Shown in pieces: positions 14,120-42,130 of a stretch of DNA of 47,451 bases (within the stretch, counting starts at the first letter, position 1; each line of letters opens with the position of its first letter). A program made the position numbers and the translations under genes. The DNA lies in contig DVGF01000030.1 in the NCBI GenBank assembly GCA_018712835.1, positions 1-47,451 on the forward strand. The letters are read 5' to 3'. This DNA comes from Candidatus Ventrenecus stercoripullorum (GTDB lineage Bacteria; Bacillota_I; Bacilli_A; RF39; UBA660). The notes below the pieces were generated by a model. That model was given only the letters and a program-made list of their open reading frames with translations. It ran no database searches and had not been told where the DNA came from.

Positions 14120-15622
14120 TTATTGTTTTTTCTTTAATCCTTCTTTGGTTAGTACATATACTGTATCTATTACTTCTTCTATATATTTTCGGTCATGTGA
14201 AACGCTGATGATGCAACCACTATATTCTTTCAGGGCCTTTCTAATTACTGGATTAGATAATGTGCTTACATTTCTTGTTGGTTCATCTAATAATAATACA
14301 TCACACTTTTCTAGGACTAGTTTGGTTAGAATTAATTTTGCTTTCGAACCATTGCTTAAATCACTTATTTTTCCAGTCATTTCTTCGCGAGTAAATTTCA
14401 TATTTCCTAGTATCATTCTTGCTTTTGTGATTTCTTCTTTGTTTTTTGTTTGAGCAATAAAATCCAGTACGTTTTCATAGTCCTTTAATATTTCTTCATA
14501 ATCTTGAGGCATGTAACCCATGACTATGTCTGTTCTTGGGGCTAGTTGCTTTTTTATTTCTTTTATTAAAGTAGATTTCCCTACCCCATTGTTTCCAATG
14601 ATACATAAATGAGCACTACCAGTTACCTCTAGTTCTATATTTTGGGCAAGAATGTTATTTTGAACTTTTAACTCTGGAAGAGATAAATAGAGTATTTGTT
14701 TGGATTTGGGAAGACTTACTGGTTCGAAGAAGAAATTGATGCTTTCTTCTACATCTGGTATTTCTGTCAATTCTATTTTATCTAGTTTCTTTTCTTGGGA
14801 TTTTAGAGAATGCATTTTCTTTTTTAATAGTTGTCCACCATGAGGATTGCTTCTCGATATGGTTTCTTGTTGGTATTCTACTTTCTGTAGAACTTTTGTT
14901 AAGCGTTCTTCTTTAGCTAGCCAATCTCTTTTTTCGTTTTTAGCAAGTTGGGTTTGTTTGGATAGTTTGGCTAGTCGTTCAGCCACATAGGTATCATAGT
15001 CTTCCTTTAATAAGGTATGACGGCATTCTGTTTTGTGTTTTATTTGTTCTAAATGTAAAATCATGGTGGAGGTCCTAGATAGCAAGGTTTCATCATGGGA
15101 TACGTATAAAATTGGATTTTCACTTTCATTTATAAAGGTTTCTAACCATTCTAATGTTTCTATATCTAAGTCATTGGTTGGTTCATCTAAAAGAAGGATA
15201 TCGTTTTCTTCTAATATTAGTTTTAAAATTGCTAGTTTTACTTTTTCTCCGCCAGATAAAGTTTTTATTTTTCTATCTAGCATTTCTTCTGTTATATGAA
15301 AGCGTTCTTTTTCTTTATAAAATTTTCCTATATTGTGATAGTAATCTTCTTCAGTTTGAAACAGATACTCTAGAGGAGTTTGTTCTTCTGCTTCTTTGCT
15401 CATGGATTGTTCTAGGTATCCTATCTTGTGATTTTTGGCACTCACTCCTCCGGTTACTTCGCCATAATCTAGCTTACCTGCAAGAGCTTTTAATAATGTG
15501 GATTTGCCATTTCCTTCTTCGCCAATGATGGCAAGTTTGTCTTTTGGATTTACTGTGAAAGATAAATTTTTTACTAAATATCTTTCCTTTACTTGAATAC
15601 TAATATTTTTTATTTCAAACAT
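14120..15622 (-). CDS. ABC-F family ATPase (candidate antibiotic-resistance/ribosome-protection type)
   Basis: Two ABC domains without TM (GEEGNGKST, LSGGEKVKL, LLLDEPTNDLD; GNNGVGKST, LSNGSKAKL, LLLDEPTRNVS); elaborate leader upstream. Confidence 0.9.
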   Translation of the reverse strand: MFEIKNISIQVKERYLVKNLSFTVNPKDKLAIIGEEGNGKSTLLKALAGKLDYGEVTGGVSAKNHKIGYLEQSMSKEAEEQTPLEYLFQTEEDYYHNIGKFYKEKERFHITEEMLDRKIKTLSGGEKVKLAILKLILEENDILLLDEPTNDLDIETLEWLETFINESENPILYVSHDETLLSRTSTMILHLEQIKHKTECRHTLLKEDYDTYVAERLAKLSKQTQLAKNEKRDWLAKEERLTKVLQKVEYQQETISRSNPHGGQLLKKKMHSLKSQEKKLDKIELTEIPDVEESINFFFEPVSLPKSKQILYLSLPELKVQNNILAQNIELEVTGSAHLCIIGNNGVGKSTLIKEIKKQLAPRTDIVMGYMPQDYEEILKDYENVLDFIAQTKNKEEITKARMILGNMKFTREEMTGKISDLSNGSKAKLILTKLVLEKCDVLLLDEPTRNVSTLSNPVIRKALKEYSGCIISVSHDRKYIEEVIDTVYVLTKEGLKKKQ

Positions 15623-15625
15623 CTT

Positions 15626-15659
15626 TTATGCCTTTCTAGGCATAATTAAAGTTTATGCC
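15626..15659 (-). promoter_or_regulatory. Three-segment mutually exclusive hairpin covering the ABC-F SD
   Basis: Minus strand: GGCATAA (15659-15653), TTATGCC (15645-15639), GGCATAA (15632-15626); SD GAAAGG at 15636-15631; start codon at 15622. Confidence 0.75.
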
Positions 15660-15663
15660 AGAC

Positions 15664-15684
15664 TTATTTTTTTCTTGTTAACAT
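15664..15684 (-). CDS. Leader peptide 2, MLTRKK*
   Basis: Strong SD GAGGAGGTG at 15696-15688 before ATG 15684; stop 5 nt before hairpin segment 1. Confidence 0.7.
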   Translation of the reverse strand: MLTRKK

Positions 15685-15697
15685 ATCACACCTCCTC

Positions 15698-15738
15698 AAG
15701 AAAAAAGACTCTCTAGATTATGGACTAGATAGAGTCTT
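15698..15738 (-). terminator. Intrinsic terminator in the ABC-F leader (attenuator)
   Basis: AAGACTCTATCTAG tccataat CTAGAGAGTCTT followed by TTTTCTT on the minus strand. Confidence 0.8.
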
Positions 15739-15773
15739 GTTTTTATTTTTTATTACATAGCAAGAAAATCAAT

Positions 15774-15821
15774 CTATTCACAATCTATTTTTATACATAT
15801 GTTATTGATTTTCTTACTCAT
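15774..15821 (-). CDS. Leader peptide 1, MSKKINNICIKIDCE*
   Basis: SD GAGGAAT upstream of ATG 15821; codons 3-6 form one arm of a 12-bp hairpin with 15762-15773. Confidence 0.7.
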   Translation of the reverse strand: MSKKINNICIKIDCE

Positions 15822-15856
15822 AGGAATTCCTCTTTTCTAATTTTTTTCTTTCCTGT

Positions 15857-15866
15857 ATTATAGCAT
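15857..15866 (-). promoter_or_regulatory. Extended -10 promoter for the ABC-F leader transcript
   Basis: Minus strand TGCTATAAT (TGn-TATAAT). Confidence 0.55.
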
Positions 15867-32700: not shown

Positions 32701-33073
32701 GGGGCAGTAAATGGTTTCGACAGCAATTACTAATTTAGACTGCAGGTAGTAGGCATACTATAAATGCAACAATTAAAATTAAATGACGAGAATAACTCAG
32801 TCTCTTCTTTCGGAGCTTTCGCTCCTGTAGCTGCTTAATTTAAAGCGAATAAGAAGGCTTTTATTCACTTTCTCTTATAGGGTGTTTAAAGGTTCATAGA
32901 TATAAGATATATAAAGTTGTTTGCTTTAGATAACTTTACGAATACTAATAAAGCTCGTATAAGAATTTGGTGAGTTGGATCCAATTCTTATATTAAATGA
33001 ATTCCAACTAAACCTGTAGACGTTTAGAGATAGGATTGTTTGGACAGGGGTTCAACTCCCCTCTGCTCCACCA
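32701..33073 (+). ncRNA. ssrA: tmRNA
   Basis: ggggcagtaaatggtttcgaca 5' end, GGGGCAG/CTGCTCC acceptor stem with G3-U pair, T-arm GACAGGGGTTCAACTCCCCTC, 3' CCA; tag ORF ends ...FGAFAPVAA*. Confidence 0.95.
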
Positions 33074-33074
33074 T

Positions 33075-33151
33075 GGGTGATTAGCTCAGTTGGTTAGAGC
33101 ACTTGCGTCACATGCAAGGGGTCATAGGTTCGAGTCCTACATCACCCACCA
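33075..33151 (+). tRNA. tRNA-Val(CAC)
   Basis: GGGTGAT/ATCACCC acceptor; anticodon arm CTTGC-GTCACAT-GCAAG gives CAC; TTCGAGT T-loop; CCA encoded. Confidence 0.92.
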
Positions 33152-40504: not shown

Positions 40505-42130
40505 TTATTGTTCATTTAAATATTCATATGCTTCAATAATTTCTGGGTCAAAATCTGTAATTTTACCGCTTGGTAAGTAAAGCATTTTAGAAATATTTAA
40601 GTTTTTTACAAACTCTATATTGTGAGATACTACAAGAAGGGTTCCTGGATAATCTTTAAAAACTTCTGCTATTAAGCTTTGGGTATCTGGGTCTAAATGG
40701 TTGGTTGGTTCGTCTAATAAAAGTAAGTTTGATTTTTCTAAAGCTAGTTTGGCTAGTGCTACTCTACTTCTTTCTCCTGGAGAAAGGACACTTACTTTTT
40801 TATAAATGTCATCACCACTAAATAAAAATCTTCCTAAAACTCCTCGTAAAAAAGAGATATCTTTGGTAATACTTTCAAATTGTTCAACAATTGTTTTTTC
40901 TTCTTCTAGTGTTTCATGTTCTTGGGCATAGTAACCAATGCTTATTTTTTCGCCTATTTCTACTGTTCCTTCTAATGGTTGTAACGTTCCCATAATTAGT
41001 TTTAACAGAGTTGATTTTCCAACGCCGTTTTCTCCGACTATCACGAAACGGTCCCCACGTATCATTTGTAAGGAAATATTTTCATATAGTAGATGGTCTT
41101 TTGTATAACCAAATGTTATTTTATCGACTCGTAATGGATAGAAATCTCCTTTTTCTTTGATTTCCATTTTGAAGTTTGCTTTTTTACTTAGTCTTTCTAG
41201 GACTACTTTGTTTTGTTCTAAGCGAGCTAGTTTTTTTTGACGGTCTTTGGCAATTTTGGCTTTTTTTTCATTTCCACAAATATATTTGGCAATGATTTTC
41301 TTTAGCTTTTCTTCTTCTTTTTCTTGCTTAGCGGCAATTCTTTCGTTTGTTTTCTTTTCTTCTGCTATTCTTTTTTGGAACGTTTCGTAAGAACCTAAAA
41401 ATAACTCCATATTGTGTTTTTGTTTATCTAAATGTAATGTTTTGTTTGTAACTTTGTTTAAAAATGGAATGTCATGGGAAATTACTAAAATAATTCCTGG
41501 ATATTTTTGAAGATAGTTCATGATGTATTCTTTGCTTTCTAAATCAAGGTGATTGGTTGGTTCATCTAGTAAGACAATTTCTGCTTTGCTAAATAAAATT
41601 CTGGCAAAGGCTACCTTGCTTTTTTGACCACCTGATAAGGTATTTAAGGGACTATCTAGTAAATCGAATATATGAAAGCCTATGGCTAAGTCGATAAGTT
41701 GTTCTTCCATTTTATATGGTTCAAAGTAATCGATTTGTTCTTGAATTTTGCCAGCATTTTTTAGAATAGATGCACTTTTCTTTTCATTTGCTACACTGGC
41801 TTCTTGGTATAGAGTAGCAAGCTCTGCTTCTAATTCTTTTAAGGGTCTTGCATTTTTTAAATACTCTTCTACTGTAATACTCATATCGGGTATTTCATCT
41901 TTGATTACTTGAGGTAGATAAGCTATTCTTGTATTTTCGCTTGTCGTAATCGTCCCAAAGTCTGGTTGGTAATCTCCTAGTATTAAATGAAACAAAGTGC
42001 TTTTTCCAGCACCATTTACACCAACTACCCCAATATGATCATGGTTATTCACATGAAGAGAAATGTCATTAAATATTTCTGTTTTTCCATATGCAAAAAA
42101 AACGTGTTCTATATCCATAATTTCCTCCAA
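40505..42130 (-). CDS. ABC-F family ATP-binding protein
   Basis: Two ABC domains: GVNGAGKST/LSGGQKSKVAFARILF/LLDEPTNHLD and GENGVGKST/LSPGERSRVALAKLAL/LLDEPTNHLD. Confidence 0.95.
   Translation of the reverse strand: MEEIMDIEHVFFAYGKTEIFNDISLHVNNHDHIGVVGVNGAGKSTLFHLILGDYQPDFGTITTSENTRIAYLPQVIKDEIPDMSITVEEYLKNARPLKELEAELATLYQEASVANEKKSASILKNAGKIQEQIDYFEPYKMEEQLIDLAIGFHIFDLLDSPLNTLSGGQKSKVAFARILFSKAEIVLLDEPTNHLDLESKEYIMNYLQKYPGIILVISHDIPFLNKVTNKTLHLDKQKHNMELFLGSYETFQKRIAEEKKTNERIAAKQEKEEEKLKKIIAKYICGNEKKAKIAKDRQKKLARLEQNKVVLERLSKKANFKMEIKEKGDFYPLRVDKITFGYTKDHLLYENISLQMIRGDRFVIVGENGVGKSTLLKLIMGTLQPLEGTVEIGEKISIGYYAQEHETLEEEKTIVEQFESITKDISFLRGVLGRFLFSGDDIYKKVSVLSPGERSRVALAKLALEKSNLLLLDEPTNHLDPDTQSLIAEVFKDYPGTLLVVSHNIEFVKNLNISKMLYLPSGKITDFDPEIIEAYEYLNEQ

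Follow-up and report, generated by a model that had tools for sequence, protein, structure and literature searches.

In Bacillus subtilis, vmlR is controlled at both transcription and translation through one upstream open reading frame (uORF), MIN, at the start of which the ribosome stalls, and vmlR-type drugs stall initiating ribosomes (PMC9226507). Its leader consists of an anti-antiterminator that contains the uORF, an antiterminator, an intrinsic terminator, and then a hairpin that sequesters the Shine-Dalgarno (SD) sequence (PMC9226507), an order very similar to that of the leader presented in this study; however, a single tripeptide uORF serves both levels in vmlR, whereas a 15-codon ORF 1 is followed here by a mini-ORF (ORF 2) past the terminator. 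Induction of cplR from Clostridioides difficile by lincomycin and retapamulin requires its uORF (consensus MR[I/M]), attenuation at the transcriptional and translational levels works jointly with this one uORF, and pleuromutilins, lincosamides, and streptogramin A are believed to cause stalling at such short uORFs (PMC10201436). Similar to most orthologs in this study, cplR is an ABC-F gene with a Met-Arg mini-uORF. It differs in having one uORF and in carrying the SD of the gene within the terminator hairpin, in place of the two uORFs, two separate switches, and probable pseudoknot of the present leader.

Two leader peptides (ErmBL and ErmBL2) precede the single resistance gene ermB, which is described as a case of erythromycin translational attenuation (PMC8274638), whereas here one ORF would serve transcription and the other translation. 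The ABC-F gene msrD is likewise attenuated and has a leader peptide, but this peptide is single and its stalling is macrolide specific (PMC10314930). The ermC scheme differs from the logic to which the anatomy here points, in which an early stall is the ON signal. Dual-level control by uORF stalling (vmlR and cplR) and paired leader peptides (ermB) are already established; what is unusual here is the presence of two uORFs, each with its own switch. The preliminary description of this DNA had called two leader ORFs at two control levels unusual, which is right for the paired uORFs and switches and not for dual-level control itself. In the open-access literature, we found no described case of one uORF per level or of an AAGT:ACTT pseudoknot.

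We propose, with a probability of roughly 0.6, that this leader senses ribosomes in two stages and that a drug halting them at or just after a start codon thereby switches on an ABC-F ribosome-protection gene. Since both switches are kept in related genomes, they probably turn the gene on when ribosomes are frozen at that point.

The ABC-F gene and its leader

The window, i.e., the whole 47,451-nt stretch of DNA that was analyzed, is contig C13 of a MAG (1.38 Mb, 65 contigs). Judged by the ABC-F gene, its closest relatives are Candidatus Ventrenecus avicola and an uncultured Bacilli MAG (98% identity). As listed in Table 1, the encoded protein exceeds the cut-off of the generic NCBIfam model, and it is far under the cut-off of every named ARE-ABCF subfamily model searched (Vga, Msr, CplR, Lsa, Sal, and OptrA), e.g., 226 of 780 bits for CplR and 243 of 725 for Vga. 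The generic model also matches a second ABC-F protein of the window (541 aa; 40505-42130, minus strand) and is thus no proof of a role in resistance; judging from its sequence, the gene is a probable candidate for ribosome protection with a putative role in resistance. Upstream of the second ABC-F gene (42130-40505), no attenuator-like leader was found. The window also contains a tmRNA with a tRNA gene directly after it (32701-33148, plus strand).

Orthologs of the ABC-F protein were drawn from the genomes of the genus, family, and order and from a genome collection, and 83 of these have at least 50% identity and sufficient upstream DNA. The protein was not found on plasmids at an E-value of 1e-80.

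Table 1. Features of the leader and the ABC-F gene in the window, in the order of transcription
Feature	Position	Strand	Basis
Extended -10 promoter (TGCTATAAT)	15857..15865	-	Sequence
SD of leader ORF 1 (AAGAGGAA)	15827..15834	-	Sequence
Leader ORF 1 (MSKKINNICIKIDCE, then stop), 15 codons	15774..15821	-	Sequence; stops of relatives
Anti-antiterminator 5' arm, ORF 1 codons 2-6	15804..15818	-	15 bp with 15773-15759
Antiterminator 5' strand (ATTGTG-AA-TAGA), over ORF 1 end and stop codon	15773..15784	-	RNAalifold consensus; constrained folds
Anti-antiterminator 3' arm	15759..15773	-	Pairing with 15818-15804
Intrinsic terminator with U tract	15701..15738	-	Fold of -12.9 kcal/mol; arm permutation test
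Antiterminator 3' strand (TCTA-GTC-CATAAT), terminator 5' arm and loop	15717..15729	-	RNAalifold consensus; constrained folds
SD of leader ORF 2 (AGGAGGTG)	15689..15696	-	Sequence
Leader ORF 2 (MLTRKK, then stop)	15664..15684	-	Mini-ORF in 73 switch-bearing orthologs
Pseudoknot strand AAGT	15662..15665	-	Pairs with 15652-15649
Segment 1 (GGCATAA)	15653..15659	-	Pairing with segment 2
Pseudoknot strand ACTT	15649..15652	-	Pairs with 15665-15662
Segment 2 (TTATGCC)	15639..15645	-	Alternative pairing with segment 1 or segment 3
ABC-F SD (AGAAAGG) and segment 3 (GGCATAA, 15632-15626)	15626..15637	-	Segment 2:3 hairpin
ABC-F protein, 500 aa	14120..15622	-	NCBIfam NF000355 ribosomal protection-like ABC-F, 396.6 bits (cut-off 380)

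The elements named in the preliminary description, from the extended -10 promoter through the ABC-F SD, are all present on the minus strand where it had placed them, and a -10-like box lies at the equivalent place in L087, L088, L089, and L115. Folding of the leader RNA, which it had proposed as a check, gave -57.7 kcal/mol, far better than dinucleotide shuffles (z = -4.7; 0 of 200 as good), although conservation is much stronger evidence for the leader than the z-score of its fold. The reading of the leader as two stacked attenuators, one transcriptional and one translational, each with a leader ORF of its own, had been staked in part on such conservation; it is supported, as the stems and leader ORFs are conserved in relatives.

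Probable transcriptional attenuator with leader ORF 1

About six lineages within the same bacterial group carry the upstream element (L085/L010, L086/L009, L087, L088, L089, L103, L115, and L068; partially in L054), always ahead of this ABC-F gene. A covariance model of the element gave strong matches in only 5 of 386 family genomes, each before this ABC-F gene (four with E < 1e-7, and G196 with E = 0.0017); the weak matches in G061, G266, and G353 (E = 0.03-0.04) were taken as chance. On the ABC-F tree, the element marks one clade and two distant branches, L103 and L068, which means that it is either older and often lost or was moved by recombination. In L054 (G163), where the upstream element is present and the three-segment switch is missing, a GGCATAA motif lies just before the antiterminator strand; this leader is possibly rearranged.

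SD-like sequences are located ahead of ORF 1 in the relatives, and the ORF 1 peptides (MVINNQFKNFIYKIMD, MVINSQFKIFINKIMD, MRNNNQQNKKEIFHYVLD, MLINNTFKQFNINMF, and MFKNNHFKIHVLIMF) are variable in sequence and stop at or just past the same place. The anti-antiterminator, described earlier as a 12-bp hairpin (15815-15804 with 15773-15762), is present and actually extends over 15 bp, one of which is a G-U pair. The antiterminator consists of two helices, i.e., ATTGTG (15784-15779) with CATAAT (15722-15717) and TAGA (15776-15773) with TCTA (15729-15726), and the TAGA strand contains the stop codon of ORF 1. The 9-bp antiterminator helix suggested previously is part of this conserved structure without being the whole of it; the TAGA:TCTA helix, like the AAGT:ACTT pseudoknot of the downstream element, is absent from the preliminary description. 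Pairing of TAGATTGTG with CATAATCTA as the sole antiterminator was rejected, as its outer part is window specific and the conserved core is ATTRTG:CATAAT plus TAGA:TCTA.

MAFFT misplaced the window sequence when run on the whole upstream element, and the alignment was instead anchored at the antiterminator. From this anchored alignment, RNAalifold returned both antiterminator helices (ATTRTG with CATAAT and TAGA with TCTA) unprompted; no double changes were observed in them. The arms of the anti-antiterminator co-vary, as do those of the terminator: own partners beat the arms of other species in the former, with 30 of 5040 permutations as good, and only 1 of 5040 was as good in the latter, phylogeny being ignored in both tests. 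For the antiterminator core, 682 of 5040 permutations were as good; this core is nearly invariant, which makes the covariation test weak.

Eight upstream elements ending just past the antiterminator were folded with ribosome footprints as constraints. The probability of the antiterminator was 0.76-1.00 in all eight leaders with a footprint on the ORF 1 start, 0 in all eight with a ribosome at the ORF 1 stop, and ≤0.01 in seven of the eight as naked RNA; the respective values for the window leader are 0.97, 0.00, and 0.00. The naked RNA of L089 already favors the antiterminator (1.00), which counts against the attenuation model. As in a ribosome-mediated transcription attenuator, an intrinsic terminator precedes the gene, and the computed folds and the consensus structure place mutually exclusive antiterminator and anti-antiterminator forms under the influence of a ribosome on the leader ORF. 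On the basis of the constrained folds, the anatomy of ORF 1 reads as a device in which early arrest would be ON and completed or absent translation would be OFF.

In this first stage, a ribosome arrested at the ORF 1 start would cover the 5' arm of the anti-antiterminator, and the freed end of ORF 1 (ATTGTG..TAGA) would pair with the 5' arm and loop of the terminator (TCTA..CATAAT), so that transcription would go on. With no ribosome on ORF 1, the anti-antiterminator would form and the terminator would win; it would also win when a ribosome reaches the ORF 1 stop and covers the antiterminator strand.

Probable translational switch with leader ORF 2

A strong-SD mini-ORF followed by three segments, usually GGCATAA/TTATGCC/GGCATAA, is present in 73 of the 83 orthologs. 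These leaders have the make-up of a translational attenuator, i.e., a leader ORF and alternative hairpins, one of which closes the ribosome-binding site, which bears out the proposal that segment 2 can pair with either segment 1 or segment 3 and in the latter case sequesters the ABC-F SD. Segment 3 runs from this SD toward the ABC-F start codon, and the SD falls within the loop and stem of the segment 2:3 hairpin (-9.4 kcal/mol). A strict pairing score was reached by 58 leaders versus 0 of 1640 dinucleotide shuffles, and a loose match occurred in 7% of the shuffles. The segment sequences seldom vary, as expected if a single segment has to match two others; the variants that do occur mostly fit, many single changes being compatible with G-U pairing, and in L076 and L079 all three segments are changed together (GGTATAA/TTATACC/GGTATA). 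When up to two mismatches were allowed, the pattern AAGTNNGGCATAAACTTNNNTTATGCC matched 28 times in the 386 family genomes (reversed control, 0), and all 28 matches precede this ABC-F gene, a truncated version, or a remnant. The exact pseudoknot pattern was not found in phage contigs.

The GAGGTG of the ORF 2 SD is conserved in relatives. Across the 73 switch-bearing orthologs, the mini-ORF has 3-9 codons, and its peptide is well conserved at codon 2 alone, which is Arg in 55 (encoded by AGA, CGC, or CGA) and Lys in 7; MLTRKK of the window is exceptional in having Leu at this position, a point against the two-stage model. The Met-Arg start in common with cplR suggests a recurring rule for mini-uORFs that sense start-arresting drugs. 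Nearly all leaders have 21-26 nt between the ORF 2 start and segment 1, irrespective of ORF length (5, 6, 7, or 9 codons). The standard deviation is 2.4 nt for the start-to-segment-1 distance and 3.2 nt for the stop-to-segment-1 distance; both are constrained, and spacing alone thus does not decide the logic.

Conserved sequences flank segment 1, with AAGT two bases away on its 5' side and ACTTTGA in the loop that connects it to segment 2. Segments 1 and 2 probably belong to an H-type pseudoknot, in which the loop strand pairs outside its hairpin with 4 bp (AAGT:ACTT) next to the 7-bp segment 1:2 stem and with loops of 2, 0, and about 3 nt. Of 74 leaders, 56 have the complete set of four pairs, compared with at most 6 when one strand was slid and at most 51 in 5000 shufflings of partners among leaders, and compensatory variants are present in L118 (AAGC/GCTT) and L068 (TAGT/GCTA). 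The position of AAGT is constant even though the stop codon of ORF 2 differs in frame (AAA TAA GT, AAG TAG, and TTA AGT TAG), which indicates that it is kept as RNA and not as a stop codon. L011, L059, and L070 have identical strands with a linker shorter by one base. A segment 1:2 stem of 8-9 bp or a loop of ≤4 nt is found in 13 of the 18 leaders that lack the pairing versus 1 of the 56 that have it (Fisher, 1e-9, uncorrected for phylogeny; several separate lineages), and the long stem or short loop reads as an alternative way to stabilize the segment 1:2 form.

Pseudoknot-free folding favors the closed segment 2:3 form (median P = 0.82), and a start-bound ribosome, which leaves segment 1 uncovered, causes no change; with a ribosome at the ORF 2 stop, the ABC-F site is closed (P = 0.98 for segment 2:3). 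Because the fold program cannot score pseudoknots and the naked RNA favors the closed form, we infer that the ON state of the second stage would come from folding order together with the pseudoknot. SD accessibility averaged over the SD was uninformative as a readout of the switch, probably because half of the SD sits in the hairpin loop.

In the second stage, nascent segment 1 would pair with segment 2, and AAGT:ACTT would lock both in the pseudoknot, which would keep the ABC-F ribosome-binding site open. A ribosome arrested at the ORF 2 start would end just short of the pseudoknot, whereas one completing ORF 2 would break it, so that segment 2 would take segment 3 and the ABC-F site would close. 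ORF 2 probably works like ORF 1, with an early stall as the ON signal; translation of both ORFs and the kinetics of switching are presumed in this scheme.

Several leaders show further arrangements. In the window, the terminator U tract plus CTTG can pair with CAAGAAAAAA inside ORF 2 (approximately 9-10 bp; 15706-15667, minus strand), which would bury the ORF 2 SD and start in the readthrough RNA; this pairing was not seen in L087 or L089 and thus may be window specific. The translational switch is retained in L226 (G307), where it is degenerate, L204 (G409), and L227 (G327), but the ABC-F gene downstream is truncated or has just its C-terminal end left, suggesting that the gene was lost recently. 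Genome G159 carries two divergent ABC-F copies (L213 and L231), with a complete switch before each. Distant orthologs of Erysipelotrichaceae (L129, L132, L133, L150, L153, L157, and L163) have other mini-ORFs (MKK, MKTA, and MKKN, each followed by a stop) and different hairpins between the mini-ORF and the ABC-F gene, and may represent comparable switches of independent design.

Alternative readings and significance

Attenuation of the ermC or macrolide type, in which the ribosome stalls at specific late leader codons (e.g., the RKK of MLTRKK) and the peptide sequence is decisive, is unlikely. Macrolide induction through leader peptides is established for msrD (PMC10314930) and ermB (PMC8274638), ORF 2 of the window has an Arg-Lys-Lys run, and the last residue is Lys in 41 of 73 mini-ORFs. 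However, the closed state is favored once a ribosome approaches the end of ORF 2 and covers segment 1, a ribosome at the ORF 1 stop removes the antiterminator in every leader folded, and peptide-specific stalling does not agree with ORF 2 peptides conserved at one codon or with variable ORF 1 peptides. It is quite unlikely that only one level is regulatory, with either a working translational switch behind an inherited upstream remnant or a working terminator and an ORF 2 that merely guides translation. The downstream element stands alone in most orthologs (67 of 90 tree rows) and is therefore probably sufficient by itself, and in L054 the upstream element occurs while the three segments are missing; on the other hand, both elements are intact in nine leaders, and every part of the upstream element (ORF 1, hairpin, antiterminator, and terminator) is retained despite divergence.

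A compact H-type pseudoknot that adjoins a ribosome-binding site and has a conserved loop resembles small riboswitches, and no relevant family for the leader was found in Rfam at the gathering threshold or at a relaxed E-value. That the downstream pseudoknot is such a riboswitch and not a ribosome sensor is nevertheless highly improbable: a strong-SD mini-ORF is kept at a nearly fixed distance in 73 orthologs, and most leaders without the pseudoknot have an elongated stem or a shortened loop in its place, so that no pocket is conserved.

For the two-stage ribosome-sensing leader, the inducing drug is probably a pleuromutilin, a lincosamide, or streptogramin A, as would be expected by analogy, since vmlR-type drugs stall initiating ribosomes and short uORFs are thought to be stalled by these classes. 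A broader generalization is tentative: in this family of gut Bacilli, the pseudoknot switch may sense exit from the start codon, with completion of the ORF (5-7 codons) breaking it and shutting the gene, and in some lineages it may act in series with an independent transcriptional attenuator that uses a second ORF and responds to the same signal, forming an AND gate against leaky expression. If the two-stage reading is true, two independent ribosome sensors would act in series on one mRNA, and a compact pseudoknot would be added as a sensor of start-codon arrest. Inducible ABC-F regulation would then extend to a large group of uncultured gut bacteria, with about 70 natural variants ready for studying how start-arresting antibiotics are detected.
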